Of a DNA stretch of 28,560 bases, positions 77-21,245 are shown piece by piece. Below the pieces are notes generated by a model that saw nothing but the letters and a program-made list of their open reading frames with translations, was not told the origin of the DNA and ran no database searches. The DNA lies in the IMG/VR virus record IMGVR_UViG_3300006846_000242, positions 1-28,560 of that record, one strand, 5' to 3'. The position numbers and the translations under genes are program-made. Position 1 is the stretch's first letter; the number at the start of each line of letters is the position of its first letter. Source of the stretch: a virus.

Positions 77-316
77 CTACTTGCCGACCCACCCGGTGTT
101 CGTGTTCACGCCGCTCTCCTTGACATACAGGGTTGTTCCCGCGCCGCCCGCGCGATTGAGATACAGGGCGCCGGGGGACCCCATGACGACGCCGTTGGGG
201 TCACCCGATCCGCGCGCCAGGACACCACGGAGATCCAGCGATGCTGCGGCGATCGTCTCAAGCGCGTGGCGTGTCGCGTTGTCGGCTACGGACGCGGTCT
301 CTAGCGGAAGCGGCAC
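77..316 (-). CDS. Small phage tail-fibre-tip-like protein
   Basis: This 79-residue protein starts with GTG at 316, chosen because AAAGGGG sits about 5 nt upstream. Residues 1-35 look helical. The C-terminal half carries the repetitive GSPGALYLNR / GGAGTTLYVKESG / TGWVGK pattern. This pattern is common at the ends of phage tail fibres and baseplate appendages, where a short beta-rich tip trimerises. Here it stands nearly alone rather than at the end of a long fibre. It is the first minus-strand gene after the plus-strand metallopeptidase, so it may need its own promoter in the shared 317-439 intergenic segment. Coding status is well supported by the motif; the exact role is inferred. Confidence 0.75.
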   Translation of the reverse strand: MPLPLETASVADNATRHALETIAAASLDLRGVLARGSGDPNGVVMGSPGALYLNRAGGAGTTLYVKESGVNTNTGWVGK

Positions 317-340
317 ACCAAGCCCCTTTACGTCATTCGT

Positions 341-368
341 TTGCTTTGGCGAATCGCAGCGCTATAGT
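341..368 (+). promoter_or_regulatory. Sigma70-like promoter for the metallopeptidase gene
   Basis: TTGCTT at 341-346, a 16-nt spacer, and TATAGT at 363-368 form a good housekeeping-type promoter. It points at the plus-strand gene starting at 440. The predicted leader is about 65 nt and ends with a GGAGA ribosome-binding site before the ATG. It is the clearest promoter seen in the window and gives the lone plus-strand gene independent expression. It is a sequence match only. Confidence 0.6.
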
Positions 369-439
369 CCCGGCACTAAAGCGCCCCCGCACCGCAATCA
401 AACGGCCGGGGGCATGGCACCAGGGAACGGAGATCCCCG

Positions 440-1018
440 ATGCACCCCAAGCGTATCGCCATCCTCATCGCGCTAGCCACGGGCATCTTCGCCCCGTCAG
501 CTCACGCGCTGACCTTCACCGAGCAACAGAAGCTCTCCCACGCACTGCCCACCGCCCGGGCGGCATGGCCAACCAGCCCATGCGCCGGCCGCGAAGTCAT
601 TCATCTCGCCGTCGACCCGCAGGTGATCCGCGAGAAGTCCCCCGACGGCCGTCACTACGAAGGGCTGTCGCTTGCAGCTACCTGCGAGGTATGGCTGATC
701 GCCGGCATGCTCGACGAGACGTTCTGCGGCGTCCTTGTCCACGAGCTCGGGCACCTCGCGGGCTATGACCATGCGGCCCCGTTCGCGATCATGACCGACG
801 CGTTCGGACACTACCCGCCATGCGACCTTGCGATGAGACCCACCATCGACGAGCAGCTGCGCGACGCGCTACCCCACAACGGGGAAGGCTGGCGAATTGG
901 CTGCCACCGGCCGCGCGACGTGTACCTGCGATGCTCGGCGACACGCAAGGGATTTCGCAAGCGCATCCTGTGGTTTCACAGCCGCCACGGCGGCGTGAGC
1001 TACAAGATCCTGCGCTAG
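440..1018 (+). CDS. Secreted zinc metallopeptidase, metzincin-like
   Basis: This is the only convincing plus-strand gene (192 aa). Residues 1-23 form a signal peptide: a basic start (MHPKR), a hydrophobic core, and an SAHA cleavage motif, so the product should be exported. Residues 101-111 read HELGHLAGYDH, the extended HExxHxxGxxH zinc site of metzincins, with ligands H101, H105 and H111 and catalytic E102. M118 follows at a spacing suitable for a Met-turn. Several cysteines (48, 82, 96 and later) suggest disulfides. GGAGA precedes the ATG. Its stop overlaps the stop of the opposing tail gene within the palindrome CTAG. It interrupts the minus-strand tail operon and has its own promoter, so it may be a cargo (moron) gene. 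The substrate is unknown; cell-envelope or host-protein cleavage is possible. Confidence 0.85.
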   Translation: MHPKRIAILIALATGIFAPSAHALTFTEQQKLSHALPTARAAWPTSPCAGREVIHLAVDPQVIREKSPDGRHYEGLSLAATCEVWLIAGMLDETFCGVLVHELGHLAGYDHAAPFAIMTDAFGHYPPCDLAMRPTIDEQLRDALPHNGEGWRIGCHRPRDVYLRCSATRKGFRKRILWFHSRHGGVSYKILR

Positions 1019-1719
1019 AACGCGCGGGTCCACACCCACAGATGGCGGTCCTTGACGGTCACCGTCCCCGACGACGCCTTGAACTGCACGCTGACGTTGT
1101 AGCTACCAGCGGCTGCCACCAGCACCGCGACACCACCACCCGCATCGGTGATGTTCAGCCCTCCGCCGACCATCATCCCGGTCGTCACATCCCCGCTATA
1201 GGCGCCCAGTGCCGTCGTGCCGGTTCCCATTCCCTTGGCGAGGTTCGGGGCCGTGAACAGCGGCACGTAGCGGTCCGCGTTGCCTCCACCCAGCGTCGTT
1301 TCGACGGTCGTCGTCGCTGTCTGCGACTGACGCACGACCTGCGACCCGCCGAGAAACAGGCCGGCCGTCGCAGCACCGTTGACCGATTCCTTCCACGTCG
1401 CCTGATAGACGACCAGGATCAAGCCGCTTGTGGGCAGATCGACGCTTGCGACCTGATCGGGGCCGTTTGTAAGAGAACCGTAGGTGGTGTCGGTTCGCGT
1501 CCCCGCGACCGCCTCTTCGAAGACACCACCGCCGACCTGCGCGCCCTGCGTCAACCCAAGCTTCTGTAGCAACGCGACCGTGAGATTGGCCTCGTCGATG
1601 CTCGCCGAGCTCAGGAACACCTCGAGGTCATCGAAGGGGCCCTTGATGTCGGCCATGTTCGCCGAGGCGCCGCCGGTGAGGTTCGCTGGGTCCCCCGTCG
1701 TGTACGCAAACGCGGTCAT
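1015..1719 (-). CDS. Putative tail structural protein
   Basis: This 234-residue protein is Gly/Ala/Thr/Val-rich and appears mostly beta-stranded, with no signal peptide or membrane segment. It follows the nozzle-like gene with an ATGA overlap (start 1719, upstream stop 1716), so it belongs to the same late transcript. The C-terminal portion alternates Val with small residues and ends in an aromatic stretch (HLWVWTRAF), a style seen in phage tail knobs and appendages. It is the last gene of the uninterrupted late minus-strand series before the inverted metallopeptidase gene. I do not recognise a named family; the assignment rests on position and composition. Confidence 0.7.
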   Translation of the reverse strand: MTAFAYTTGDPANLTGGASANMADIKGPFDDLEVFLSSASIDEANLTVALLQKLGLTQGAQVGGGVFEEAVAGTRTDTTYGSLTNGPDQVASVDLPTSGLILVVYQATWKESVNGAATAGLFLGGSQVVRQSQTATTTVETTLGGGNADRYVPLFTAPNLAKGMGTGTTALGAYSGDVTTGMMVGGGLNITDAGGGVAVLVAAAGSYNVSVQFKASSGTVTVKDRHLWVWTRAF

Positions 1720-3371
1720 GTGTGCTCCACTGACTCCACTCGCTTCTCACGCAGGTGCTTTGCGACGCGATGAATGCCCCACGAGGAGGACGCCGCGTTG
1801 TTCGCGAACTCCGTCGAGAACGCGGTTGCCCTGACCGCCTTGCGCGACAGCACGCTGTTGATCTGCCCGACTCCAGGCCACACACCGTTGTTCAGGGCGA
1901 TCCAGTCCGCCCAGGTGCCCGACGTCGGCCACGTCGCCGAACCGGCGAAGATGACGGTGTCGACCTCCGTCGGGGTGGTCTCGAAGTCCTTGCTGTAACG
2001 GACCGTCGCCGCACCAGATCCCCACAGCTTGCTCTCCCGAACCGTCTTCACTGCCGGGTCGCCGTAGTCGCCCCACCCCGACCGCCAACGGCTCGTGATC
2101 GCCACGGCGCTGTCGTCATCGGCGCTCGTGGACAGCCGCCCAACCTTGTTCGCCCCGGTGCTGTAGCCGAAGTGAAGCTCAGGAAGGTCGCCGCGGCGAA
2201 ACGCGACCAGGGCGCTGGCGGGAATGTCGAACAGGCTCCACCACCCATGCTCGGTATCGAACACCAGAACCCTGTCGTTCGCGGATGCCACACCGGTCGG
2301 GAGCGCGAGATACAGCAGCTCGTCGGCCTCGTTCCAGGCCATCCGCGCCAACGCGATCTGGGCGGCGTTGAGGACCTCTGATTGGAAGTACACCTCGACG
2401 TCCCCGGTCCAGATCGGGCCGATCTTGCCGGAGATCAACTTCGGCTCCCCGCCAGTCGTGACGTACACCCCACCGCGGTCCATGAAGTACACGCCGTCGC
2501 GTGCCGGCGCAACAGCGAGCTTCGCTGCCAACCCAACTCCGGTGTTGACCTCTCGGTAGTTGAAGACCGGTAGGCCGGCGGCGTCCGTGGATTCCCCGTA
2601 GATCACGAAGAACTTCGTCTGCTTGAACACGAACACAAGCTCGCGCCAGCGGACGGCGTTGAGGATCTGCTCGCCGTCTCCGGGGGTCAGGTCGATGAAG
2701 TTGCGGCCCCTGCCAGACGACCCGTCGGTCTCCCACGTCTCGGGCAGCCCAGGGTTTGAGAAGTGCACTCTGCTGGGGTTGCTGGTCGTACCGCCCGGTC
2801 CGTTCGTCGTCGCGGTGCCGTAGGCGGTCGCGACGAGGCGGTTCGCGGCGTTCGTGGAGCTCGAGAGACCGGGGGCGGCTGCGGTGACCGTGACCGCGCC
2901 GGCCTTGGGCATCGCCGCGCTGCCGGCCCCGTTGACCGTCGCCGAGCTCGCCCCCGATGACCAAGCCGACCCGCTCCAGCGTTGCAGCGTGTCCGTCCCG
3001 TTGGCCGCATAGGCGAACTCCGATCCCGGCGCGGCCGTCCTAGCAAACACGTACGGGCCACCCGCAAGCCCCGTCTGCGATGCCACGACAGCCCCAGCCG
3101 TGCTCAGCGCCTCAAGCCTCGTCCCGCACCCCGCGAGGAGCTGCCTGGTTCCGCTGGCGGTGTAGAACACGCCGAGGCTATCCACACGGTTGGTTAGGGC
3201 TGCGGTGAGATCGACGTAGCCGTCGCGTTGCTGGATCGCGCCGCGCTTGGTGAACGTCACGTTGAGCAGGTCGATCGCTTCCGCGTCGCTGACGACGTCG
3301 GCCTTGTCGCGAAGATTCAGGCCCCCGGCGAAGCTCTGGAACTGATACGGCGTGTAGCCCTCTCTGGCCAT
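1716..3371 (-). CDS. Tail nozzle/stabilisation-like beta-propeller protein
   Basis: This is a 551-residue protein; the ATG at 3371 overlaps the connector stop (TGATG). The N-terminus (YQFQSFAGGLNLRDK, then a segment on replaced and looped residues ending QRDGY) is typical of short-tailed-phage proteins that close the tail tube. These proteins begin with a statement-like GGLN...D motif followed by repeated beta-blades. Later segments such as FKQTKFFVIYGES, DGVYFMDRGGVYV and DTEHGWWSLFDIP look like repeated blades of a propeller. Together with the connector genes just upstream and the absence of a tape measure, this supports a podovirus-type tail. The family call is by pattern, without alignment. 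Confidence 0.72.
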   Translation of the reverse strand: MAREGYTPYQFQSFAGGLNLRDKADVVSDAEAIDLLNVTFTKRGAIQQRDGYVDLTAALTNRVDSLGVFYTASGTRQLLAGCGTRLEALSTAGAVVASQTGLAGGPYVFARTAAPGSEFAYAANGTDTLQRWSGSAWSSGASSATVNGAGSAAMPKAGAVTVTAAAPGLSSSTNAANRLVATAYGTATTNGPGGTTSNPSRVHFSNPGLPETWETDGSSGRGRNFIDLTPGDGEQILNAVRWRELVFVFKQTKFFVIYGESTDAAGLPVFNYREVNTGVGLAAKLAVAPARDGVYFMDRGGVYVTTGGEPKLISGKIGPIWTGDVEVYFQSEVLNAAQIALARMAWNEADELLYLALPTGVASANDRVLVFDTEHGWWSLFDIPASALVAFRRGDLPELHFGYSTGANKVGRLSTSADDDSAVAITSRWRSGWGDYGDPAVKTVRESKLWGSGAATVRYSKDFETTPTEVDTVIFAGSATWPTSGTWADWIALNNGVWPGVGQINSVLSRKAVRATAFSTEFANNAASSSWGIHRVAKHLREKRVESVEHT

Positions 3372-3970
3372 CACCAGTCCTCGCTGGCGAACGTGAGGAC
3401 CTGCAACGACTGGTTTTGGCGGTTGCGCGCCGCGTAGATCTCCATCATCCGGCCGACGCGCGCGTTGACGTCGCTCTGAAGCGCCGCTGCGGCCTGGTAG
3501 TTGTCGGAGTCCTTGTACGCCTGGATCACCGCGAGGTCGATCCACACCGGGTGATAGCGCTCGGGGATCAGCGGCGTGTCCGAGCCAGCGGTCAGCTGGG
3601 GGCTGAACCGGACGTAGCGCACCAACAGGCTCGCCGAGGACACGGGGTAGGTACGCAGGGTTGTCGTGCCGTCAAGCCACCACGAGTCGGCCGTCCCAGC
3701 GGTCGCCACGCCTGCGTCTCGGTCGACGACATCCCTCGCGTCGACCCCGGCAAGGATCTGGTCGGCGTCTTGATCTACGACGTAGAGCACGGACTTCAGG
3801 TCGCTGATCGTCAGTGGCGCCGATCCGGTCGTGGTGGTCTCTAGCCACGGCCATGGGTACTCATCCTCGAGCTGATTGCGGGCGTTGTTGAGCATGATGT
3901 CCATGCGCGGGGCCGACAGGTAATCGAAGCCCCTGTCGCCGAGCTCAGCGCGGGCGGCTGCGAGGTCCAC
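3371..3970 (-). CDS. Head-tail connector (adaptor-like) protein
   Basis: This 199-residue protein starts with GTG at 3970, preceded by AGGAGG, and overlaps the upstream gene by 26 nt. It opens with a helical segment containing the pattern RMDIMLNNARNQLEDEYPWPWLE, typical of adaptor proteins that dock under the portal. A central beta-rich part follows (LKSVLYVVDQ, TTLRTYP, LLVRYVRFSP). A C-terminal helix rich in Ala/Gln ends it. Size, layout and place between capsid genes and the nozzle-like gene fit a head-tail adaptor or gatekeeper. No catalytic motif is present. Confidence 0.72.
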   Translation of the reverse strand: MDLAAARAELGDRGFDYLSAPRMDIMLNNARNQLEDEYPWPWLETTTTGSAPLTISDLKSVLYVVDQDADQILAGVDARDVVDRDAGVATAGTADSWWLDGTTTLRTYPVSSASLLVRYVRFSPQLTAGSDTPLIPERYHPVWIDLAVIQAYKDSDNYQAAAALQSDVNARVGRMMEIYAARNRQNQSLQVLTFASEDW

Positions 3971-4487
3971 GACCCCTCCTACCGGCGACGTTCTGGTGCC
4001 ACGCCGAATCGCGGTTCATGCTGATGCTGGCCGATGTCACCTTGCGGTAGTGATCGACGATCTGCTCCTGACGATCCCGACGCTCGGTGACCTTGCGACG
4101 CTCAAGCTCCTCCTGGGCCTTGCGTTGCATCTGCTCACGCAACCTCGGGACGCTCGCGTTCCACATGTCCATCGCCTTCAGACGATCCAACAGCCCACTG
4201 GGTGGGTAGACGAACTCCCCTTCGGGTCCGCGAACGGGGAACACGCTCCACGGCGCGTTCTCGTTGCACCTCACGACGTGGTAGTAGCCCGGCTCCAACG
4301 GGGTGCCGATCACCACATGCTCAGGGGCCCGGACCATCTTCAGCAGCGGATCGAGACGCTTCAGCTCCCTCGTCCACTGCTCGCACACGCGGTCGGAGTA
4401 GCACGCCCTCGTGAGCTCGGCGTTGTGTTGCTGGCGCTCCGCCACCAGCCTCTCGTGAACCTGCGGTGGGACGAACAGCCGTGGCAT
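3945..4487 (-). CDS. Conserved-type phage structural-region protein, unknown role
   Basis: This 180-residue protein begins at ATG 4487 immediately after the TAG of the previous gene. The N-terminal third is helical and charged and has a short LKRLDPLLKMVRAPE segment. A small globular beta part with GYYHVVRCNENAPWSVFPV follows, then a long basic helix rich in Arg, Gln and Glu (about residues 115-150). The final residues are an Arg/Gly-rich tail (GRRGRGPRSRPR), which could bind nucleic acid. It lies between a small beta-rich protein and the connector, so a role in head completion or as an internal protein is possible. I do not recognise the family with certainty. Confidence 0.65.
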   Translation of the reverse strand: MPRLFVPPQVHERLVAERQQHNAELTRACYSDRVCEQWTRELKRLDPLLKMVRAPEHVVIGTPLEPGYYHVVRCNENAPWSVFPVRGPEGEFVYPPSGLLDRLKAMDMWNASVPRLREQMQRKAQEELERRKVTERRDRQEQIVDHYRKVTSASISMNRDSAWHQNVAGRRGRGPRSRPR

Positions 4488-4832
4488 CTACAGCGAGCCG
4501 ACGGCCGTCACGTCGATAAAGCACCCGGTCGGGAACGCTTCGCTGTTCGTCTTCTCCGACAGGGCGGTACCAGCCGCCGAGCCCTCGAAGAACACCAGCT
4601 TGCCGTTGGCCTGATCCCAGCTCACCGGGCACCCGGTCGACAGGGCCGAAGCCATCGCAACAGCCCCGTGAAAGATGATCTGCTCGACCTTCTTCAGGCC
4701 GAAGTTGCTGGCCGCGATCGTCTCCCCGCCGGTCGCGTAGTTGCCGCTGAACGTCAAGCGGCGGGGGCGGACCTTCTTGTTGCCCCATACCGTGTCCTGC
4801 GCCCCCGTGATCTTCGCTGCTGCTACAGCCAT
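4488..4832 (-). CDS. Small beta-rich head protein (decoration-like)
   Basis: This 114-residue protein has ATG 4832 preceded by TAGGAGACC. The sequence is built of short beta strands with conserved-looking motifs SGNYATGGETI and FGLKKVEQIIF, then LVFFEGSAAGTAL. Proteins of this size and style sit next to capsid genes in many phages and are usually annotated as virion or decoration proteins. It is the first gene after the strong terminator behind the capsid gene, so its expression depends on read-through or on an unseen promoter in 4833-4915. Confidence 0.7.
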   Translation of the reverse strand: MAVAAAKITGAQDTVWGNKKVRPRRLTFSGNYATGGETIAASNFGLKKVEQIIFHGAVAMASALSTGCPVSWDQANGKLVFFEGSAAGTALSEKTNSEAFPTGCFIDVTAVGSL

Positions 4833-4860
4833 GCTGGTCTCCTATTCGACTCTGGTTGAG

Positions 4861-4909
4861 TGCCCCTTCAGGGGCAGACAAAAGGGGCCGGGAACTGCTC
4901 CCGGCCCCT
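4861..4909 (-). terminator. Intrinsic terminator behind the capsid gene
   Basis: On the minus strand, an 11-bp perfect stem (4899-4909 with 4883-4893) encloses a 5-nt loop (4894-4898). It is followed at once by TTTT, a textbook Rho-independent terminator seven bases after the capsid stop. A second 6-bp hairpin with a 4-nt loop (4861-4866 with 4871-4876) follows. It would limit read-through into the downstream connector and tail genes and keep capsid mRNA in excess. Confidence 0.85.
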
Positions 4910-4915
4910 GTGCGT

Positions 4916-6172
4916 CTAGGCGGTCAGGGCGGTCGCCCCGGCCAGGCCGTTGCGTCGCTGCGCACCGATCTGAAGCGGGAACACGACCGCGTCCTTACCG
5001 GTCGTGGTGCCCGCAGCCCACTGCGTCTGGCCGTTGCCGCCGAACACGTCGGTCGCCCACTTCGGGCCATCCCACGCCCCGGTGATCCGGCACAGATCGC
5101 TGAGCGTCAGCGCCCACCAGTCGCTGTCCAGCACATCCGGGAACGCGTCGACGACCATCCCGTTCCAGCGCAGGCGGCTGACCGACCCAGCCGCGAGCTC
5201 ACGGTCACCGGAGAAACGCACCTGGTTTTGCAGCAGGCTGTAGAAGTTGGCCTCCTGCTTGAGGCCCGTCCACACCTGCGTCTCTGACTGCCCCGTACGC
5301 TGACGCACCTGACGGGACAGGTTCAGCGCCAGATCCAGGCTGAAGACGCTGGTTGACGTGTCCCTCGCCGCAGCGGCCCAGAACTCCTCCCCCGCGTTGG
5401 CGGGGTTCAGGCCACCAAGCGCACCCGACGTGTTGACGATGTTCCTGAGCCCGTTCATCTCCGGGTTCGCGGCAGTCGCCGAGTTCGGGTTGGCGATGTA
5501 CACGAAATGCGTACCAGACGTGGTGGAGATCGACGTCCCGATCGTGATGTCCGGATCGGTCGGGTCGTCCTTGATCGCGGTGACCTCCGCAGCTGTCACT
5601 AGCGCATCGGTGTCCGCCGTCGTGCCGATATCCACCACCGACCCGACACCCAGCCAGCCGCGGACGATCGCGTCATAGCCATACGCCGTGCCCGAAGGGC
5701 TTGGCAGCAGCTCGACCGTCGTCGAAGCACCACCCGTATCGCACTGAGCGACGATCCCGTCGCCGTTGGTCATCAGCTGCCTGACGGCCTGATGGCGAAC
5801 GTTCTCAACCGCGTTCTCGATCTCCAGATCCTTCGCCGACACCACCGACTGCAGCGTCGCGCCACCCGCCTGCGCGAGCGCGCTGGCATCAAGCTCGACC
5901 TGCAACCAGTGGTAGACCAGCGTGTACGTCGCCTGGTCGACCAGCTGCTTTCCGGCGGCGTTCAGCGTGCCGCCGCCCGCCCCGACTGACGTGTAGCCGC
6001 CGAGGTTGCGTCCCTTGTGGATCGGCACCTGCGCCTGCTTGCCGATCATCGTTGCCTTGACCTTCTCCAGACGCGTCAGTGGGCCGTTGTCGGCCTCGAA
6101 CTGCTTGACGATCGTCTGGGAGGTCCAGTTCTCCTTGAGCACGTCAAGGAGCGTCGTGGCTGTCTGAGCCAT
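4916..6172 (-). CDS. Major capsid protein
   Basis: This 418-residue protein has ATG 6172 behind AGAGGA. It begins with a helical arm (ATTLLDVLKENWTSQTIVKQF). A loop region with repeated Gly follows (RNLGGYTSVGAGGGTL), then YHWLQVELDASALAQ and a long helix (LEIENAVENVRHQAVRQLM). This layout is the HK97-like N-arm, E-loop and spine helix. A central beta/alpha part contains NPEMNGLRNIV, a motif common in major capsid proteins of Actinobacteria-type phages. It lies between the scaffold-like gene and a terminator, with the portal upstream, the standard head-gene order. The call is strong from order, size and pattern. Confidence 0.88.
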   Translation of the reverse strand: MAQTATTLLDVLKENWTSQTIVKQFEADNGPLTRLEKVKATMIGKQAQVPIHKGRNLGGYTSVGAGGGTLNAAGKQLVDQATYTLVYHWLQVELDASALAQAGGATLQSVVSAKDLEIENAVENVRHQAVRQLMTNGDGIVAQCDTGGASTTVELLPSPSGTAYGYDAIVRGWLGVGSVVDIGTTADTDALVTAAEVTAIKDDPTDPDITIGTSISTTSGTHFVYIANPNSATAANPEMNGLRNIVNTSGALGGLNPANAGEEFWAAAARDTSTSVFSLDLALNLSRQVRQRTGQSETQVWTGLKQEANFYSLLQNQVRFSGDRELAAGSVSRLRWNGMVVDAFPDVLDSDWWALTLSDLCRITGAWDGPKWATDVFGGNGQTQWAAGTTTGKDAVVFPLQIGAQRRNGLAGATALTA

Positions 6173-6956: not shown

Positions 6957-7148
6957 TCAGGTGCGGCCTGCTCGCTCTGCTCTGGCGGCCTGCCACCTTG
7001 AAAGATCGGTACCGACGTTCGCGTAGACGCTGTACACCAGCACCACCCACACGGCGTCTTGCAGATCAAAGACGAACACCGCAACCCCGGCGAGCAGCCA
7101 GAACGCTGCGCCCGCGAGCGCCAGGTGCTCCCAGAAGCGCTCAGCCAT
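6957..7148 (-). CDS. Small two-helix membrane protein
   Basis: This 63-residue protein overlaps the portal gene by 8 nt (ATGGCTGA). Two hydrophobic segments, about residues 10-27 (ALAGAAFWLLAGVAVFVF) and 31-45 (VWVVLVYSVYANV), flank a short FDLQDA turn. A basic tail rich in Arg and Ala follows. Short two-helix proteins of this shape include holins, but this one sits inside the head-gene block, so other roles such as virion membrane protein are equally possible. Confidence 0.7.
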   Translation of the reverse strand: MAERFWEHLALAGAAFWLLAGVAVFVFDLQDAVWVVLVYSVYANVGTDLSRWQAARAERAGRT

Positions 7149-9105
7149 CTGGCTGGCGCTGATCAGGCAACGGCTTCTCGCGCACAGGTCTGGCGGCGTT
7201 CTCCATCCCTTGCTCTGCGGCCTGGGCGTTCTGGGCCTCGAGCATCCGCATCTGCTGCTGAGCTTCGAGGAACTGGATGCCGCGCCAGATCTGCTTGGCG
7301 ACCTCCTGCAACCCTGGGTCAAGCTCGTCGTACTCGTGGGTCTTCATCCAGTCACCCAGGACGTTGCGCCACACCTCGAGGTTGTCGACCTCCGAAGGCA
7401 TGTAGGACGGGACCTGCATCGGCTCGCCCGTCATGGGATCAGGCTCTTCGCGGGCGGGCATATCCAGCACCGTCTGGTCGCGGATCTTCTGGATCACCCG
7501 GTTGATCCTTGCGATGTCAAGCTCGTAGGACTCGATCAGCTTCTCGGCGGTCCCACCGTTGATCGCGGCCATCGCCTGCATCGGCGTCACCCAGCCACGA
7601 TCGGCGAACGCAAGAACCTGGTTGGTGATCTGCTGCTTGGTGCGAACCTCCAGGGACTGCGGGAACACCCTGACGTCGACCTGGTCGAGCAGCTGGGCGC
7701 CCTGGAAGTCGGGGATCAGGTAGGGGCCGCTGGTGCCCTGGATCGCCAGGAGCCTGGGTTCCTGGTAGTGGCGCTGGACGAGCATCAGGCAGTGGCGGGC
7801 AAGACGGCTGTGGAACTCGGCGAGGTCCCCCAGGAACTCCTGCCAGCGCAGGTTGGATTGCTCGATGACCGCCTGGATCGTCTTCGCAGCGACGTCCGCT
7901 TGGGCTTCGATCTGCTCGTCCGCGGCGACGTCTCGCGCGAACTGCTGGATCTCGCGAAGGATCTGAAAGAGCTCTGCGGGGATCTGCGGGGGCTTCTCCC
8001 ACTCCGGCGGCGCGAACCCAGCCTTGTAGTACGTCACGGCCCCCGGCACGTCGGTGGGACGGTTGAGCAGCGACTGCGCGACGGCTTTCATCTGCGGGTG
8101 AAGGCAGCGGTTCTTCCATTCCAGGATCTTGTTCCAGCAGTCCTGGTAGGTGCGCTGCGCGTCGATCAGCTGCCACGTCAGCCCGAAGTCACGGTCGGTC
8201 TCGGGGTCGGCGTCCCAGCAGAGGCGGTGAAGGACCGGCTCATCTAGGACACGGTTCTGGGGGTCGATGAGGGGGTAGGTGTCCTCGGGGGCCACGACCT
8301 GCCCGTTGGCGATGTACAGATGCCTTCCCTGGGGATACTCGGGGCATGGGCGCTCCATGTACCGGGTGAGCATCGCAAGGTTGTCTTTGTCCTTGTCGGT
8401 CGGGATGTCCGACGTGCCGGCGTCCGCCTTCAGCTCGATCCCCGTGAACCCCGGGATCTCGCGGATGTCATCCAGGGGGGTCGCTCGCTCGATGACGTAC
8501 CAGCGGGAGTCCATGAAGTCGACGCCGGGCTCCCAGTAGCACTCGTTGCCGTTGAGGATCAGGACCCTGATCTCGCCGTAGCCAACCTGCTTGGGGCCAT
8601 CCTCGGTGTCGATCTGCACGTACGGCCCGACGTTGGGCTCGAAGTAGGGCATCGCGAACCCGTCCCCACCGCCACCGGCGGCGAGCTTGACGACCTTCTT
8701 GGAGACACGCCGAAGGCCCCACTTGTCATAGCCGTACAGCGCCACCTTCTCCGAGAGGCGGGCGGCGGCGATGTCCTGCGGGTCGGTGGTGGACGGCGTG
8801 ACCTCGTAGGACGGGATGCGCTGGGTCGCCGCCGACACCTTCGCGCGGATGATCGGCCCGATCAGGTTGTAGGTGTTGCGGATGCGATGCGGAGGCTTGC
8901 CGCCCCCCGTGACGTGCGTGACGGTCGACTGGAAGTTGAGGTTGTTGCGCTCGGTGATGTACCAGTACGTGTCGCCCTTGGTGAAGCGCATGCACAGCCG
9001 GCGCTTCGGTGCGTCTTTGAGCATCGCCTTGCGGCCCCGGTCGATGCGCTCCTTGACTTTGCGCGGAACGACCGGATCAGGGCGGCTGAATTCAAGCAGC
9101 GCCAC
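7141..9105 (-). CDS. Portal protein
   Basis: This is the largest protein (654 aa). It starts at GTG 9105 with CAGGAG upstream and overlaps the preceding gene by 14 nt. It begins with a helical, charged segment, then GDTYWYITERNNLNF and NTYNLIGPIIRAKVSAATQRIPSYEV. This is typical of podovirus-type portals, which recite the region on surface residues, then the wing and stem. A central part has GYGEIRVLILNGNECYWEP and RHLYIANGQVVAPED; the C-terminal part is long and helical (AAKTIQAVIEQSNLRWQEFLG), and a Gln/Met-rich tail ends it (LEAQQQMRMLEAQNAQAAEQ). Portals form the dodecameric DNA gate. The position upstream of scaffold and capsid genes agrees. Confidence 0.85.
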   Translation of the reverse strand: MALLEFSRPDPVVPRKVKERIDRGRKAMLKDAPKRRLCMRFTKGDTYWYITERNNLNFQSTVTHVTGGGKPPHRIRNTYNLIGPIIRAKVSAATQRIPSYEVTPSTTDPQDIAAARLSEKVALYGYDKWGLRRVSKKVVKLAAGGGGDGFAMPYFEPNVGPYVQIDTEDGPKQVGYGEIRVLILNGNECYWEPGVDFMDSRWYVIERATPLDDIREIPGFTGIELKADAGTSDIPTDKDKDNLAMLTRYMERPCPEYPQGRHLYIANGQVVAPEDTYPLIDPQNRVLDEPVLHRLCWDADPETDRDFGLTWQLIDAQRTYQDCWNKILEWKNRCLHPQMKAVAQSLLNRPTDVPGAVTYYKAGFAPPEWEKPPQIPAELFQILREIQQFARDVAADEQIEAQADVAAKTIQAVIEQSNLRWQEFLGDLAEFHSRLARHCLMLVQRHYQEPRLLAIQGTSGPYLIPDFQGAQLLDQVDVRVFPQSLEVRTKQQITNQVLAFADRGWVTPMQAMAAINGGTAEKLIESYELDIARINRVIQKIRDQTVLDMPAREEPDPMTGEPMQVPSYMPSEVDNLEVWRNVLGDWMKTHEYDELDPGLQEVAKQIWRGIQFLEAQQQMRMLEAQNAQAAEQGMENAARPVREKPLPDQRQPDG

Positions 9106-9403
9106 TGGTCTCCTGAGCCATCAGACGCTCGGCGAGCTGGTCGCGGTCCTCCCAGTAGTCCCCGTCGTCGTTGGGGTCCACGGCGGGCGGACTGGGCTCG
9201 ATCTGGGGCTGATGTTGCATCACCGCGACTTCCGGGGCCTGCAGGCGCTGACAGAGACGGTCGGTCAGCGCGATCATGCTCTCCAGGTCGGGATTCTTGG
9301 CCGCAAGTAGCTGGGTGATGTGCTGCTCGTGGCGGCGGTTGGCGAATTGCCGTTCGGCGGTGGAGAACACCACGACAGCCACCAACACCACGAGCTCAAT
9401 CAC
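9092..9403 (-). CDS. Membrane-anchored small protein, unknown
   Basis: This 103-residue protein has GTG 9403 in a GTGA overlap with the tail-spike stop. Residues 2-14 are a hydrophobic stretch (IELVVLVAVVVFS), a probable N-terminal membrane anchor. They are followed by a charged helix (ERQFANRRHEQHITQLLAAKN) and an acidic, Pro-rich C-terminus (DPNDDGDYWEDRDQ). This topology resembles an Rz/spanin-like or membrane-tethered virion protein, but no defining motif is present. It lies between the tail-spike and portal genes. Confidence 0.68.
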   Translation of the reverse strand: MIELVVLVAVVVFSTAERQFANRRHEQHITQLLAAKNPDLESMIALTDRLCQRLQAPEVAVMQHQPQIEPSPPAVDPNDDGDYWEDRDQLAERLMAQETSGAA

Positions 9404-10842
9404 AGCTGTGCCCGCCAGTTGAGCACGACATTGTTGGTTCCTGACGCTGGCGCTGTGGCATACGTGACGGTGATGTTCGTGGCGTCCACCGTGACATGGA
9501 AGTCGCCCTTTGCGTCAGCGTGACCGGGAGTGACCGTTACGGTTCCCGGAGCAGCAGCAAGGCCATGAGCGATCGTGAACGCTGTCGCCGAGCCGTTGCC
9601 GTTCTGCGTGGACCGCCCATAGTTGTCCGAGCGCAGAATGTCGGTCGTGGACCCGTTGAAGTACCTGGTGCTATTCCCGTAAAAGACGTCTGGGGTGAAT
9701 CCATTGGCGAGAAGCCTTGCTCCGGCCCCCTGATTGCCGATCACCGCAATCTGCTCCATCGTGTTGGACCCAGATCGGGTGATGAATGCCCGGTAGTTGG
9801 AGTTCGCTGGACCGTTGAATGTACTGCCCATGACCGTCATTTGCCGCAGCGCGGACGACGCGGCCGTGACGTCTACGAACACGCAGTCGTACGTGTCGTT
9901 CGGAGCACCTGTTACCTGATAGAAGGTGTTGCCGACGATCGTGAAACGCCCGATCGTGGTGGATACGCCAACGAGGATGCGGATGTGATGTCCGGCGGTC
10001 GCCTCGATGATGTTGTCAACGATGTGGATTCCGCCGCCGCCAGTGCTGATGTTGACGATGTCAATGTCGTGGCGATTTGTGCCCGTTGCGCTGATCCCGT
10101 AGATGTGATTGCCGGAAATCTCGACGGCTTGCGCGGCATCGAGGCGAATTTGTGCTCCCCCGCCTTCGCGGATCTGGTTTCGGCGGATCTTGTTGTCGGT
10201 GTTCCCCACCTTGATGGTGTAGCCGGTGCTGTCCTGGCCGATGACGGAGTCAAGGACGTGGCCATTCTGTCCCGCCATGTCGAGCGCCTGACTTGAGCCA
10301 CGCCAAATCTGGCAGCGTTGAATGACGTTACGTCGCGCGTTGGTGCGAACGGCGCTCGTTGCCTGCCCAGACCCGTCAATGATCAGATGATCCAGCGAGG
10401 CGCCCGTCTCTCCGGAGTCGGTAGAGGTCAGGTCGTCGCCGAGTTGCACGACGGCCCCACTGATCGCTCCCGACGCCTTGATAATGGAGCCCCTCGCCGG
10501 GGTGGCCGTAACAACCGAGAAGTCAAGGCTTGTGCCGACGAGTCTGACGCCGCCAGGCACGACGATCGTGCTCGCGACGCGATAGATGCCGGGGGGAAAG
10601 AACACATCGCCGCCAGCAGTTCCGGTCGCCGCGATCGCGGCCTCGACGGCTGCCGTGTCATTGGCGACGTTATCGCCAACCGCCCCGTACTCGGGGTCCT
10701 TGACATTGATCGGCGCCTCGCGAATCACCGCGATCGCGGCGGTGTCCGCGCTGACGCTCTGAAGATCGGGGCCTTCGAAGTATCCCGTTTGGTTGTTGCC
10801 GTTGGCATCGGTCGCCATTGCGGCGTATTTGTAGGTGGTCAT
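9400..10842 (-). CDS. Pectate-lyase-fold tail spike (beta-helix)
   Basis: This 480-residue protein has ATG 10842 in an ATGA overlap with the esterase gene. Residues 1-25 carry a module shared with that neighbour (TTYKYA..TD..G...TGY.EGP). Residues 45-110 match the entry to a Pectate_lyase_3 right-handed beta-helix: PEYGAVGDNVANDTAAVEAA, then FFPPGIYRV and VPGGVRLVG. The remainder has regular short turns such as IQRCQIWRG, IRRNQIREG and VEISGNHIYG, as expected for stacked coils. The C-terminus is a small beta domain. Phage proteins of this fold are trimeric receptor-binding spikes or polysaccharide depolymerases. No catalytic residues can be assigned. Confidence 0.87.
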   Translation of the reverse strand: MTTYKYAAMATDANGNNQTGYFEGPDLQSVSADTAAIAVIREAPINVKDPEYGAVGDNVANDTAAVEAAIAATGTAGGDVFFPPGIYRVASTIVVPGGVRLVGTSLDFSVVTATPARGSIIKASGAISGAVVQLGDDLTSTDSGETGASLDHLIIDGSGQATSAVRTNARRNVIQRCQIWRGSSQALDMAGQNGHVLDSVIGQDSTGYTIKVGNTDNKIRRNQIREGGGAQIRLDAAQAVEISGNHIYGISATGTNRHDIDIVNISTGGGGIHIVDNIIEATAGHHIRILVGVSTTIGRFTIVGNTFYQVTGAPNDTYDCVFVDVTAASSALRQMTVMGSTFNGPANSNYRAFITRSGSNTMEQIAVIGNQGAGARLLANGFTPDVFYGNSTRYFNGSTTDILRSDNYGRSTQNGNGSATAFTIAHGLAAAPGTVTVTPGHADAKGDFHVTVDATNITVTYATAPASGTNNVVLNWRAQL

Positions 10843-12155
10843 CTGAGATCCCTAGGTAGAAGGCCCCGCGCCACCACAACGCGGTCCCACGACACATCAC
10901 CGGTCCCGGTCGCGCCGTTCTCCGCGAACAACCGGATCGTCAACGTCCCGGCGGTTCGGTCTACACGGATGCTCGCCGTCGCCCACCGCCAGTCTCCTTG
11001 GCCCTGCGTGGTGGCGGTGCTTGTCTGCGACGCCGTGTTCGAGCCGCCGGTCGTGAAGATCGAGATGCGCCCAGCGTTGGCCGGGGAGCCTGCAACGACC
11101 CGCTCCCGCGCGCACAGCGTGGCCCAGCTGCCGAGGTAGGAGCGGATGTTCGCGCCCGTAGCCGAGTTCTGTAGGTAGGCGATCGCTGCGGTCGTCGGGA
11201 CCGTCCGGATCGAGTGTCCGTGCGGTGCCTCGTATTCGGTGGTGTTCTGCGTGACGGTGACGTTGGAGCCCGTCCACCCCGTTGGTGGGGCCGCGTAGGA
11301 CGCGAAGTCCATGTTCGTGAACCCCGGGCTGCTCGTCGGCAGCAGCAGCGTGGAGACCTGTTGGCCGTTGGGGGGCGACCCAGGCACATAGCGCAGATGC
11401 GACTTGATCTCGTTGAAGATCGCTCGCTGCCCCGCGGGGTTGGGGTGAATCTGGTCGGCGAGCAGGCTCGTGTCGGTCGTGTTGTCGGCAAGCACGAACA
11501 GCCGGAACGTGTCGATCAGGCCGTAGCCACGCTGGCGGGCGAGGCGCATCGTGACGTGCCTTCTGGCGGCCTGCACGGCCGCGTTGCCGTCGGTCCTGGG
11601 GTTCTGCGTGAGCAGCACCAGCTCGGTCTGCGGGCACGCCGCGGTCACCGTCTCGGTCAGCGCCGAAAGGTTGTCGCGCCAGAACGGCTCGGCGGCCGCA
11701 GACCCCTCGTTATGTCCGAGGCTGACGAACGTGAGGTCCGGGCTCTTGATGGCGAGCATCTGATCGAAGTACGGCGCCAGGAAGAACTGGCTGGCCTGGC
11801 TCGCCACGCTGCAGTTCCAGACACTTAGGGTTCCGCTGGCGCCGTCACCGGCCTGCAGGACAGTGACCGCCGGATAGTCCGTGGACGCCCATGTCGCGGT
11901 CTCGACACGCAACCCGGCGTACAGGCCAGCGAAGTACTGGCCGAGCAAATCCGCCCATTCCCCTGCCGCGTCGGCGGTGCTGTCGGACAGAATCACGATC
12001 GTCGCGTTCTGCTTGGCGGCCAGCTTGAGATGAAGGCCCTGCCCGACGAGGTTGTTGGACCCAAGGTTCGTGGGCTCCGGGCCCTCGGAGTACCCGGTGC
12101 TGATCGACCCGTCGTCGTCTGTGACGACGGTCGCGTACTTGTAGGTCGTTGCCAT
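10839..12155 (-). CDS. SGNH/GDSL-family esterase with virion-module N-terminus
   Basis: This 438-residue protein has ATG 12155, sharing TGATG with the upstream stop. Residues 1-28 hold the module shared with the neighbouring tail spike. Residues about 50-255 form an SGNH hydrolase: block I ILSDST with catalytic Ser59, block III GHNE with Asn149, and block V DQIHPNPAG with Asp234 and His237. All four expected residues are present, so the enzyme is probably active as a deacetylase or esterase. The C-terminal 170 residues look like a beta-sandwich carbohydrate-binding-type domain (GWTGSNVTVTQNT ... TAGTLTIRLFAENGATG). It likely removes ester groups from surface glycans during adsorption. Confidence 0.87.
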   Translation of the reverse strand: MATTYKYATVVTDDDGSISTGYSEGPEPTNLGSNNLVGQGLHLKLAAKQNATIVILSDSTADAAGEWADLLGQYFAGLYAGLRVETATWASTDYPAVTVLQAGDGASGTLSVWNCSVASQASQFFLAPYFDQMLAIKSPDLTFVSLGHNEGSAAAEPFWRDNLSALTETVTAACPQTELVLLTQNPRTDGNAAVQAARRHVTMRLARQRGYGLIDTFRLFVLADNTTDTSLLADQIHPNPAGQRAIFNEIKSHLRYVPGSPPNGQQVSTLLLPTSSPGFTNMDFASYAAPPTGWTGSNVTVTQNTTEYEAPHGHSIRTVPTTAAIAYLQNSATGANIRSYLGSWATLCARERVVAGSPANAGRISIFTTGGSNTASQTSTATTQGQGDWRWATASIRVDRTAGTLTIRLFAENGATGTGDVSWDRVVVARGLLPRDLR

Positions 12156-13155: not shown

Positions 13156-13340
13156 CAGTGCAGCTCCACGAACGCCGCGTTGAGCTGCCTGCGCAGCCTA
13201 TGAACCTTGTCGGGGGTCAGGACGAACTCCTCCCCGTCGACCGTGAGGATCGCGACGTTGTCGCTGGTCGCCTCCACACTGGTCTCCTGGACCTCCACCG
13301 GCTTCTTCTTTGTGGTCATCCTCGTCCTCTCTGTCGTCAC
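13155..13340 (-). CDS. Small protein after large terminase
   Basis: This 61-residue protein begins at ATG 13340 in an ATGA overlap with the terminase stop. A second ATG seven codons later (13319) has a better GAGG site, so the true start is uncertain. The C-terminal half resembles a short beta-hairpin and helix (AILTVDGEEFVLTPDKVHRLRRQL). The N-terminus is Lys/Thr/Glu-rich and probably unstructured. Unknown function; short proteins with this VDGEEF...LT.....L pattern occur in many phage genomes. Confidence 0.65.
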   Translation of the reverse strand: MTTERTRMTTKKKPVEVQETSVEATSDNVAILTVDGEEFVLTPDKVHRLRRQLNAAFVELH

Positions 13341-14929
13341 GACATAAAGCCCATCGGCACCATCTCAGGCGCCGGGACCAGCCAATCGGCCTTGGGGGCC
13401 TCACCCGGCGTCCACAACCGCTTCTCGGACGCAGGCAGCGGGTCGTTGGTCCACGCCCGCGCCATCGCCACATACCTCGTCGGGTCCATCAAGTGATCCG
13501 GGCCGATCGTCGCGAAGGAATGCCCCTTCGCCGTGCTCCTGGGCCGCGACTCGTTGGTGTCCTCGTCCGCGGCGACAAGCCAGCGATCCGCCTCACGCAA
13601 CCAGCTCGTACACGCCCGACTGACCCTGAGACGATCCTTCTGCAAACGGCCCTTCAGCTGCAGAACACCAGCCAACCGGTCGTTCTCGCCCGCTACCGCC
13701 GCGACCCCAAGGCGATGAAGCTCGGTCTGCACGCTCTCCTGCGCCGTCGCCATCGACCTGATCCGCTGCGACGGGTCGACGACCCACACCGGGTCATCCA
13801 AACCCCAAAGCCTGTTCTTGACCCGTGCCTGCTTGACGATGTCCTCCACACCAAGGTTCTGCGGATACAGCTCGTCGAAGACCAGCATGTCGTTGGCCTG
13901 ATCAAACGCGCACCACACCACCCCACCCCGCGTGAGGCCAGGGTCATAGCCAATGACGACATCCATCCCCTCGATGTCTGCTCGTGAGACAGCATCAACG
14001 AGGTGGCGCTCCGCGAGCTCCTCGAGCACCCGGCCACGAAAGCTGACGAAGTCCCCATCAACACGAGCCCTGCGCTCCGCCTCCGTCAAACACCTGGCGA
14101 CCTCCTGCTCAATCGCCGCTTTCGGCAGATACGGATTGTCACGCATCGACCACTGACCCACATACACGTCAGGGTCATTGCGCCGCAGCCAAACCTCGTC
14201 ATACGTCCACGTCAACCCGCCACCCAACAACGACGGGGTCATGTTGAACGCGATCTCACCCCGATGCTTCAGCACACGCATCCGGGACTCCCTGTAGATC
14301 CCCCACCCATTCGGGGCCGGGGGCTCCTCATCAAACCTAACCCGGTGAAGCGTCGCGCCCTGATGCTTCTCCCGCGGCTGCTCCGCGCTCATGAACTGCA
14401 CCTGCGACCCGCCCTGAAACCGCAGGACCCGCAGCGTCTTATCGAACGCCGACTCCCAACTACCCCCAAGAAGATGCTCCCTCGGGGCTAGCCGCTGCCA
14501 CTTCGGGATCAACACGTCATACAACGACGCCCCAAGATCCTGCGTCACCACCCTGCACCGAAACGGCGGATCCCACACCTTGAACGGCCTGAGCCGCGAA
14601 GGAACGGCATCGAGGGGAAGACACTGAATCAGATCATCAACGACCCCGATCTCCGTCTTGCCCGCCTGATTCCCCGCCACCCCCATCTTCAAGGTGACCC
14701 CGTCATGAGCCACCTTCAGCTCCCCGGTGGCCGCGAGGTAGCCGATCTGGCCCCCCGACCCATCACGCCTATGAAACGGGTTGAAGCCCTCCAACGGGTT
14801 GCGCTCAACAAGCGCATCCCACTGCCGCAGAAACCCATCGACCTCCACCCGCTCCTCAGGCTTCAGCCGGTCATAGTCAATCCGATGCCACTCCCCAGCC
14901 CGATTCCCAGGCAGCCTGACAACACGCAT
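13337..14929 (-). CDS. terL: Terminase large subunit
   Basis: This 530-residue protein uses the ATG at 14929, which shares TGATG with the upstream stop; the upstream in-frame extension runs antisense through another gene and is rejected. The ATPase has a Walker A GNQAGKTE at 86-93 (Lys91) and Walker B VRFDEE at about 197-202. The nuclease half has VVIGYDPGLT (Asp329), VWVVDPSQ (Asp385) and a final DHLMD at about 478-482, giving the acidic metal-binding set. It powers genome packaging and cuts the concatemer. The small subunit lies about 1.2 kb upstream, separated by four small genes and a non-coding region, which is unusual. Confidence 0.92.
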   Translation of the reverse strand: MRVVRLPGNRAGEWHRIDYDRLKPEERVEVDGFLRQWDALVERNPLEGFNPFHRRDGSGGQIGYLAATGELKVAHDGVTLKMGVAGNQAGKTEIGVVDDLIQCLPLDAVPSRLRPFKVWDPPFRCRVVTQDLGASLYDVLIPKWQRLAPREHLLGGSWESAFDKTLRVLRFQGGSQVQFMSAEQPREKHQGATLHRVRFDEEPPAPNGWGIYRESRMRVLKHRGEIAFNMTPSLLGGGLTWTYDEVWLRRNDPDVYVGQWSMRDNPYLPKAAIEQEVARCLTEAERRARVDGDFVSFRGRVLEELAERHLVDAVSRADIEGMDVVIGYDPGLTRGGVVWCAFDQANDMLVFDELYPQNLGVEDIVKQARVKNRLWGLDDPVWVVDPSQRIRSMATAQESVQTELHRLGVAAVAGENDRLAGVLQLKGRLQKDRLRVSRACTSWLREADRWLVAADEDTNESRPRSTAKGHSFATIGPDHLMDPTRYVAMARAWTNDPLPASEKRLWTPGEAPKADWLVPAPEMVPMGFMS

Positions 14930-19260: not shown

Positions 19261-19454
19261 CGTTGTTCGCACCAGTTTGGGATCTTCGCCCCCACACGGC
19301 GTGCGAGGCTGACCAGGGAACGATTGCTGGGCCGTTCCTGGTCTAGGTCGTCCGAAGCCAGGCCCTGAGCGAGCGCATATGTCAAGGCGAGACGCAGGGC
19401 TCGCTGCTCGTCTTCGGACACGAACTGAACCGCAGGCTCGTCTTGAGATGGCAT
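19257..19454 (-). CDS. Small helical protein, unknown
   Basis: This 65-residue protein begins at ATG 19454, sharing TGATG with the upstream stop. A helical stretch (EDEQRALRLALTYALAQGL) and a second helix (NRSLVSLARRVGAKI) resemble a small helix-turn-helix without a clear recognition motif. Function unknown. Confidence 0.65.
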   Translation of the reverse strand: MPSQDEPAVQFVSEDEQRALRLALTYALAQGLASDDLDQERPSNRSLVSLARRVGAKIPNWCEQR

Positions 19455-20089
19455 CAGTCGCCTTTCGGGAGCTGCTCGTCGATCCTGTCGATCAGCTCGT
19501 CATACTCAGCCGACGACTCGCCGTCGGTCGCGAACTCCTGCTCGGCCGAATGGATGCAGCCAAGTACGTCGTCCCATTCCTCCATCGTCAGGCTCACCGA
19601 GAACACCGGCTCCCCTCGAGATGGGCCGGTCATCGCTGGATCCGCCAGACGGTACTCCCACGCTGGTTTCTTCGGCCACGCCTCAGCCGACACCGTCTCC
19701 TTACGGCGTTCGATGATCCCGACCTGGGACAGGCGATGAACGATCTTGGCGACGCTTGCGTAGCTAACGCCGGTCGCATCGACGAGCTCGGATGCCCTCA
19801 TCCAGCGGCGATCAGTCGCCAAGACATCAAGGATCTTCTGCTCCGCATGGGGGCTCATCATGTGCTCGTGCCCATCATCTCGTTCACGCTCCACGAATAC
19901 GACCCAGACCAGCCCTGGATCATCACCAACAGCACCCGCAAAACGATAGACCTCCCATCCGTCCTCGGATTCTGGACGTGGGTCAACGAGACGTACCCGC
20001 GGCCGCGGTGGGAGGTCGTGCCTGATCCGTGGCAGCTCGAGCCAGCCCGAGACGACTGAGTCATTCCCAACGAGCCACGTGGTCGGCAT
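19454..20089 (-). CDS. Winged-helix DNA-binding protein
   Basis: This 211-residue protein is read from ATG 20089; it overlaps the upstream gene by 29 nt. A start at MMSPH (19861) would leave only the DNA-binding part, but the N-terminal segment (GWEVYRFAGA, LVWVVFVERERD) looks protein-like. Residues about 79-135 form a winged helix: EQKILDVLATDRRWMRASELVDATGVSYASVAKIVHRLSQVGIIERR (in part), with a recognition helix in SVAKIVHRL. The C-terminal part is a small alpha/beta region with acidic ends (EYDELIDRIDEQL). It is probably a regulator of phage genes; ligand and operator unknown. Confidence 0.75.
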   Translation of the reverse strand: MPTTWLVGNDSVVSGWLELPRIRHDLPPRPRVRLVDPRPESEDGWEVYRFAGAVGDDPGLVWVVFVERERDDGHEHMMSPHAEQKILDVLATDRRWMRASELVDATGVSYASVAKIVHRLSQVGIIERRKETVSAEAWPKKPAWEYRLADPAMTGPSRGEPVFSVSLTMEEWDDVLGCIHSAEQEFATDGESSAEYDELIDRIDEQLPKGD

Positions 20090-20595: not shown

Positions 20596-20811
20596 CTAGA
20601 TCCTCCGTGGCCTGTCGTCCAAGTACTCCGCAGGCACCGGCTGTCCGGCCTGCTCGTAGATGCCACGCATGATCGCGTTGACGTTGCTGGGGTCCCAGGT
20701 CGCCTCCGTGAGGCGACGAGTCACGACCTCATCAGGCCAGCGCCCAAACACCTTGCGATAGACCCGGTTCTTGAGCTTGCTCTCGCCGAAGTCGCTGCGC
20801 GACGAAGTCAT
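20596..20811 (-). CDS. Small protein, unknown
   Basis: This 71-residue protein begins at ATG 20811 (ATGA overlap with the metallopeptidase-like gene). It has a basic helix (SKLKNRVYRKVFGRWPDEVVTRRL, in part) then a segment with NAIMRGIYEQAGQPVPAEYLDD. Overall charge is mixed. No known family. Confidence 0.68.
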   Translation of the reverse strand: MTSSRSDFGESKLKNRVYRKVFGRWPDEVVTRRLTEATWDPSNVNAIMRGIYEQAGQPVPAEYLDDRPRRI

Positions 20812-21245
20812 GCGTCCTCGCCCTCGAGCTGGTCGTAGACGCCGCGATCGTGCAGCCAATTGACCGTCCGACGCACCAGCTCGCCGAGCACCCAGGCGTA
20901 GGGCTCGTCGTTGGAATCCGTCAGACGCTCGTCGGGATGGTCGAGCATCCAGACCTGGAGCGCGGCATGTGCCATCTCGTGGCTGATCATGCCGACGCCG
21001 AGGTGCGGCTTGGCGAGCCTCACGATTGCGCACAGCGGGAGCTGCTCGCCGTGGGCCTCCAGCTCGAAGCGGTGGCAGATTCCGAGTGTGTCGGCGTGAA
21101 GCCCGCGTTGGCGGCGCTTTCGGCTGGCCGTCAGGTTGTCGTACCGCGTGGCCGCTGCACGCAGCGCCTTGACGTTGTCGTAGACGACGACCTGGACCTC
21201 ACGCCGCGGCTCGCTCTCGATGCCGATGGTCAGCGGGCCGATCAC
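20808..21245 (-). CDS. HExxH metallopeptidase-like protein
   Basis: This 145-residue protein starts at GTG 21245 in a GTGA overlap with the upstream stop. A beta/alpha N-terminus (REVQVVVYDNVKALRAAATRYD, in part) leads to ICHRFELEAHGEQLPLCAIVRLAK and the zinc motif ISHEMAHAALQVW, where HEMAH (89-93) provides H89, E90 and H93. A third ligand is not obvious. Such small HExxH proteins occur in phages, with unknown targets; some SprT-like or toxin-like proteins have this layout. Cytosolic, because no signal peptide is seen. It is the second HExxH protein in the window and differs clearly from the secreted one. Confidence 0.75.
   Translation of the reverse strand: MIGPLTIGIESEPRREVQVVVYDNVKALRAAATRYDNLTASRKRRQRGLHADTLGICHRFELEAHGEQLPLCAIVRLAKPHLGVGMISHEMAHAALQVWMLDHPDERLTDSNDEPYAWVLGELVRRTVNWLHDRGVYDQLEGEDA

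Follow-up and report, generated by a model that had tools for sequence, protein, structure and literature searches.

In Listeria monocytogenes the mtz-tim locus encodes Mtz (LMRG_00713), a secreted metzincin derived from a phage or mobile element (PMC8235301). The phage protein described here resembles Mtz by its features: a small size, a Sec signal peptide, the zinc motif HExxHxxGxxH/D, an AIM-type Met-turn and a phage or mobile-element origin (PMC8235301). Mtz is paired with a TIMP-like gene beside a CI/Cro switch in Firmicutes, whereas the present gene stands alone and inverted in a virion operon; no TIMP-like gene adjoins it, and the genes on either side are virion genes with homologues in relatives. 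With the matrixins (MEROPS M10A; MMPs, karilysin) the protein and its family share HExxHxxGxxH, the Met-turn and a predicted fold for which MMPs are the leading matches. The matrixin core comprises ~160 residues compared to ~110 in the family, which has four conserved cysteines. Similar folds are predicted for the phage and virus M10 proteins in BFVD (uncultured Caudovirales A0A6J5P205, Maribacter phage Colly_1), at 14-17% identity to the modelled family member. Concerning gene position, an orientation antisense to the lytic genes, together with a promoter of its own, is described as typical of a gene at a moron locus (PMC7067206). Prophage morons such as lambda lom and bor, or STMMW_20121 of ST64B that lies antisense to the lytic genes (PMC7067206), are accessory genes with their own promoter, placed antisense to or within late genes. 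Unlike these, the cargo here is a predicted exported protease, and its slot is common to several exported proteins in related phages.

The window is the whole stretch of 28,560 nucleotides that was analysed (IMG/VR record IMGVR_UViG_3300006846_000242, positions 1 to 28,560). Gene calling gave 440-1018 as the sole plus-strand gene in these 28.5 kb, all remaining called genes being on the minus strand, and the inversion inside the tail operon proposed in an earlier note was thereby borne out. The overlapping contig L002 has the same gene (protein-level identity) and extends the minus-strand operon leftward, where the genes further left are also on the minus strand. The 192-residue product is read from an ATG start with a Shine-Dalgarno sequence GGAG (429-432, plus strand) 7 nt away. 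On its left the gene stands head to head with gene2 (77-316, minus strand, 79 residues) across a divergent intergenic region of 123 nt (317-439); on its right it stands tail to tail with gene1 (1015-1719, minus strand, 234 residues), the stop codons sharing 4 nt. Both flanking genes are homologous in relatives. Beyond gene1, all on the minus strand, follow a tail or virion structural protein (1716-3371; PHROG 3287 virion structural protein, E 5.7e-26), an SU10-type adaptor (3371-3970; Pfam PF24175), the major head protein (4916-6172; PHROG 14242), a P22-like portal (7141-9105; Pfam PF16510) and the terminase large subunit (13337-14929; tblastn to actinophage terminases). The inverted gene has the same GC3 as the remaining phage genes (0.82), and by composition it is therefore no recent foreign arrival.

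The protein begins with a predicted signal peptide, MHPKRIAILIALATGIFAPSAHA (440-508, plus strand; heuristic score 3.87), with the predicted cleavage after A23, and a signal peptide was also present in the other family members examined. The zinc site HELGHLAGYDH occupies residues 101-111 (740-772, plus strand), where H101, E102, G104, H105 and G108 are invariant in 21 members and the third His is found in 20 of 21. The Met-turn methionine M118 (791-793, plus strand) falls in an invariant alignment column. The signal peptide, zinc motif and Met-turn claimed earlier for this gene are thus all present, the first by a heuristic, and conserved in the family alignment. The protein ends in a basic C-terminal tail (839-1015, plus strand) of net charge +8 with the Cys pair C155/C165, and tails of the same kind occur in L013, L016, L025, L038, L039, L042 and L043. 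Basic tails were found mostly in members from structural or late regions, with the Cys pair in 8 cases, the window included; members from early regions end shortly after the core, without a basic tail. From these sequences we infer that the basic, Cys-paired tail may retain the protease at the surface.

When the single window protein was searched against IMG/VR, the same phage alone matched. The family was reached from a distant phage protein (L003), whose motif led to 16 IMG/VR contigs, and a scan with a better anchor brought the family to a minimum of 21 members. Across the 16 aligned rows of the first set, A39, W43, P47, the cysteines at 48, 82, 96 and 128, H101, E102, G104, H105, G108, H111, P114 and M118 were invariant. 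The four cysteines and the zinc site were near-invariant across the family, whose minimal matrixin-type core comprises ~110 residues with two probable disulfides. A leave-window-out HMM built from 20 relatives matched the window protein with 48.7 bits (E 1.7e-14) and its mature part alone with E 2.9e-10; none of 300 shuffled copies matched. The hhalign probability between the window protein and the family was 97.9%. The dN/dS of the mature part was 0.16-0.35 in six pairs of relatives, a set without the window gene itself, which points to purifying selection and a function maintained in relatives.

Against Pfam, the window protein scored 15.6 bits with PF00413, below the curated cut-off of 24, and all 16 members of set A2 matched Pfam M10 at E <= 1 (best E 5.3e-9). 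Neither an MMP-type pro-domain, nor a cysteine switch, nor structural Zn/Ca sites were found in the alignment or the model; the mature core starts directly after the signal peptide and is too short. We therefore describe the family solely as matrixin-like, not as MMP-type. A tblastn search of the members against 50,697 phage records gave no match, PHROGs gave no usable match, two scans of GTDB genomes with narrow probes found no chromosomal relative, and searches of the literature available to us found no description of an exported mini-matrixin family of this kind. On the sequences we define the predicted exported mini-matrixins of phages as a new, previously unnamed family. The remark that exported metzincins are unusual in phages holds for catalogued phages, where they are rare, but they recur in uncultivated ones and a phage-derived one is known in Listeria (PMC8235301).

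For the fold, the AF2 model of the window protein reached a pLDDT of 45, and the window is for this reason covered by homology only. The mature form of relative L020, modelled from 21 aligned rows with the window included, gave pLDDT 91.8 and pTM 0.85. With this model the top PDB matches in Foldseek were matrix metalloproteinases, at modest E-values (best 6.7e-3), and VIA-align, which covered Foldseek's own candidates only, gave Z up to 8.8 and 2.9 Å over 97 residues. Together with the zinc site and the Met-turn, these matches lend good support to a predicted matrixin-like fold in the family and, through homology, in the window protein too. A metzincin core as expected in the earlier note is hence predicted for a family member, whereas the window's own model did not resolve one.

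To see what else occupies this position, relatives were recruited by the neighbouring virion protein (1716-3371), independently of the protease, which gave 49 loci. After merging near-copies ~34 phages had a visible slot, and in 10 of these (window included) it held a lone inverted gene for a small exported protein: three matrixins (window, L039 and L042), one other HExxH zincin and six proteins of no assigned function. The occupants sit between, or adjoin, homologues of the flanking genes, and each is a single ORF that is inverted and encodes a signal peptide. In many of the loci (L060, L061, L062, L065) the homologues of gene1 and gene2 abut, and in the window the matrixin gene separates them; it is thus an insertion between genes that are adjacent in relatives, as in a moron. 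A recurrent slot for exported cargo inside the virion operon is a new finding here.

The HExxH protein (HELGHVGIARWF...DHELAAEAYS) is non-metzincin by motif and is encoded on three near-identical contigs (L088 12212-12745, L089 and L090, minus strand), inverted near the same tail protein. The L081 (7678-8145) and L082 (2266-2766, minus strand) occupants encode exported proteins that are related to each other (41% identity) and contain a coiled-coil-like stretch; both genes are inverted and lie between gene1 and the tail protein gene. L076, L077, L078 and L087 hold small proteins of no assigned function, some weakly related. The small non-matrixin cargo genes are putative, being assigned by their position, their signal peptide and, in some cases, their similarity to one another. 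In a first, loose scan for signal peptides the antisense background was high (139 in 483 kb), and the stricter reading of the same scan list (high score, normal-length signal peptide) was made post hoc. In L043, recruited via its matrixin, the matrixin lies at the same slot position. The head and tail proteins of L039, L042 and L043 are ~25-39% identical to those of the window, so the slot arrangement is old or has been acquired repeatedly; in the family tree the window protein was on a long branch, with no support for its placement. The matrixin genes of L038, L040/L041 and L013/L016 are inverted as well, amid apparent structural genes of other phages, and many family members lie in early-type regions, outside the tail slot. 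The L039 slot member (4259-4879; the same as L099 12024-12644) has Arg as third zinc ligand (HEVGHLLGYGR) and is possibly inactive or altered.

A promoter of its own had been claimed to free the gene from the late transcript. The candidate, TTGCTT-16-TATAGT (341-368, plus strand; boxes 341-346 and 363-368), exists and was the only site of its class in the window with both strands searched. It matches at 8/12, under the tool's threshold, and when the 123-nt intergenic region was dinucleotide-shuffled, 12% of the shuffled copies scored as well (local p ~0.12). The promoter of this copy appears weak and is only suggestive. In 6/16 inverted genes a TANNNT box stood 5-8 nt ahead of the start codon, as in leaderless transcripts, compared to 1/471 control genes (Markov expectation 0.3, P 2.3e-7); this P is optimistic, because the idea came from viewing these same sequences. 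The effect is large, and the start codons were picked by signal peptide, independently of the box. The window matrixin gene is without such a box, and a sigma-70 scan of the regions preceding the other inverted genes gave no consistent -35/-10 pair. A putative promoter signature of their own is thus supported for the inverted cargo genes as a class; for this copy the earlier claim was too strong.

Of the first 16 contigs with a family member, 10 encode a tyrosine integrase, and so do the contigs of the later members L039, L041 and L043, of which L039 and L043 share the slot; the phage of L003 has a serine recombinase. No integrase was found in the window's 28.5 kb, which is an incomplete phage, nor in L002 or L006, and lysogeny is therefore inferred from the relatives. 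The suggestion of a prophage moron accordingly holds for the moron-like insertion and for the integrases of relatives, but has no integrase behind it in the incomplete sequence of this phage. The terminase and portal show weak similarity to actinophages, and the host is probably, on weak grounds, an actinobacterium; WhiB, a marker of actinobacterial hosts, was absent from the 26 records searched. From the company of related contigs we guess that the phage came from soil.

The gene, its family, the conserved active site, the action of purifying selection on relatives and the recurrence of the inverted slot are read directly from sequence, and export, like the fold of the relative, is predicted. 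On this basis we propose, with somewhat better than even confidence, that the gene is a moron which exports a surface-acting matrixin-type protease from an inverted cargo slot, for the benefit of the prophage-carrying cell. A minimal zinc protease with a core of ~110 residues and two probable disulfides would be made and exported by the Sec pathway, and its basic, Cys-paired tail would probably hold it at the cell surface. Inversion in the slot would free its transcription from that of the late operon, and the lysogen is the likeliest setting for it. The protease may be active on one or more envelope or extracellular proteins, and their cleavage would be the gain of the cell. That related phages put other exported proteins in the same spot suggests that the slot carries cargo which modifies the exterior of infected cells. 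Against the moron reading count the weak promoter, the missing leaderless box and the lack of an integrase in the 28.5 kb or L002/L006, and further the low pLDDT of the window protein's own model, the same-strand placement in L025/L044, the members in early regions and the loss of the third zinc ligand in L039.

A nutritional or general fitness role, in which a secreted protease serves protein feeding or resistance to antimicrobial peptides in soil and has no phage-directed role, is possible but rather unlikely in our judgement. It overlaps with the moron reading, as one possible benefit. The occurrence of the family in unrelated temperate phages and at varied genome positions, not bound to one phage type, would fit it, whereas so small a domain, with its basic and Cys-paired tail, suits a local target better than bulk digestion, and the slot also accepts exported proteins that are not proteases.

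More tentatively, and in our opinion unlikely to hold in full, the slot could be dedicated to swapping exported genes, two of them unrelated zinc proteases, with the matrixin shaving the receptor of rival phages and so causing superinfection exclusion. If true, the lysogen would have proteolytic superinfection exclusion, and a large group of uncultivated phages would swap single inverted cargo genes. The new family and its recurrent slot in themselves make it testable whether prophages of environmental bacteria reshape the surface of their hosts with secreted proteases, and to what end. Matrixins of this kind, small, disulfide-bonded and with no visible pro-domain, could also be useful as model proteases.

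The main phage-directed rival is a lysis helper; a nutritional or fitness role is as hard to dismiss. As a lysis helper the exported protease would weaken the wall during lytic growth, perhaps through cleavage of a wall-active lipoprotein, and so aid the phage lysins as Mtz-Tim does. The secreted metzincin of Listeria mtz-tim, which comes from a phage, makes cells more sensitive to lysins (PMC8235301), and in L025/L044 (L044 6352-8495) an amidase-like gene and small membrane-protein genes, recognised by reading and not by HMM, directly precede the matrixin gene on its own strand. In eight or more phages, that of the window included, however, the gene is inverted relative to the late operon, so that its mRNA would oppose late transcription, and no TIMP-like partner gene was seen adjoining the matrixin. 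We regard this role as quite improbable for the window gene.

It is very doubtful that the protease is packaged in the virion or acts at entry with no export by the host; the gene is located among virion genes, but it is inverted to their operon, Sec-type signal peptides recur in the family and the four conserved cysteines suit an oxidising compartment. The sub-threshold Pfam M10 score could be cited for a spurious ORF, or for a host gene that the phage picked up and that has since decayed, but this reading is in the main refuted by the HMM match, the dN/dS of relatives, the conserved slot and the phage-like GC3, and its probability is negligible.

Further genes of the window were noted in passing. 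The 438-residue product of 10839-12155 (minus strand) has by eye a GDSL/SGNH-hydrolase-like stretch, VILSDSTADAAGEW, and is possibly a tail-fibre esterase; the 480-residue protein beside it (9400-10842) looks like a beta-helix, also by eye. A 145-residue protein (20808-21245, minus strand) contains HEMAH without a signal peptide and could be a cytoplasmic zincin. At 19454-19861 (minus strand) a winged-helix protein with an IclR-type HTH (E 3e-6) is a candidate phage regulator.
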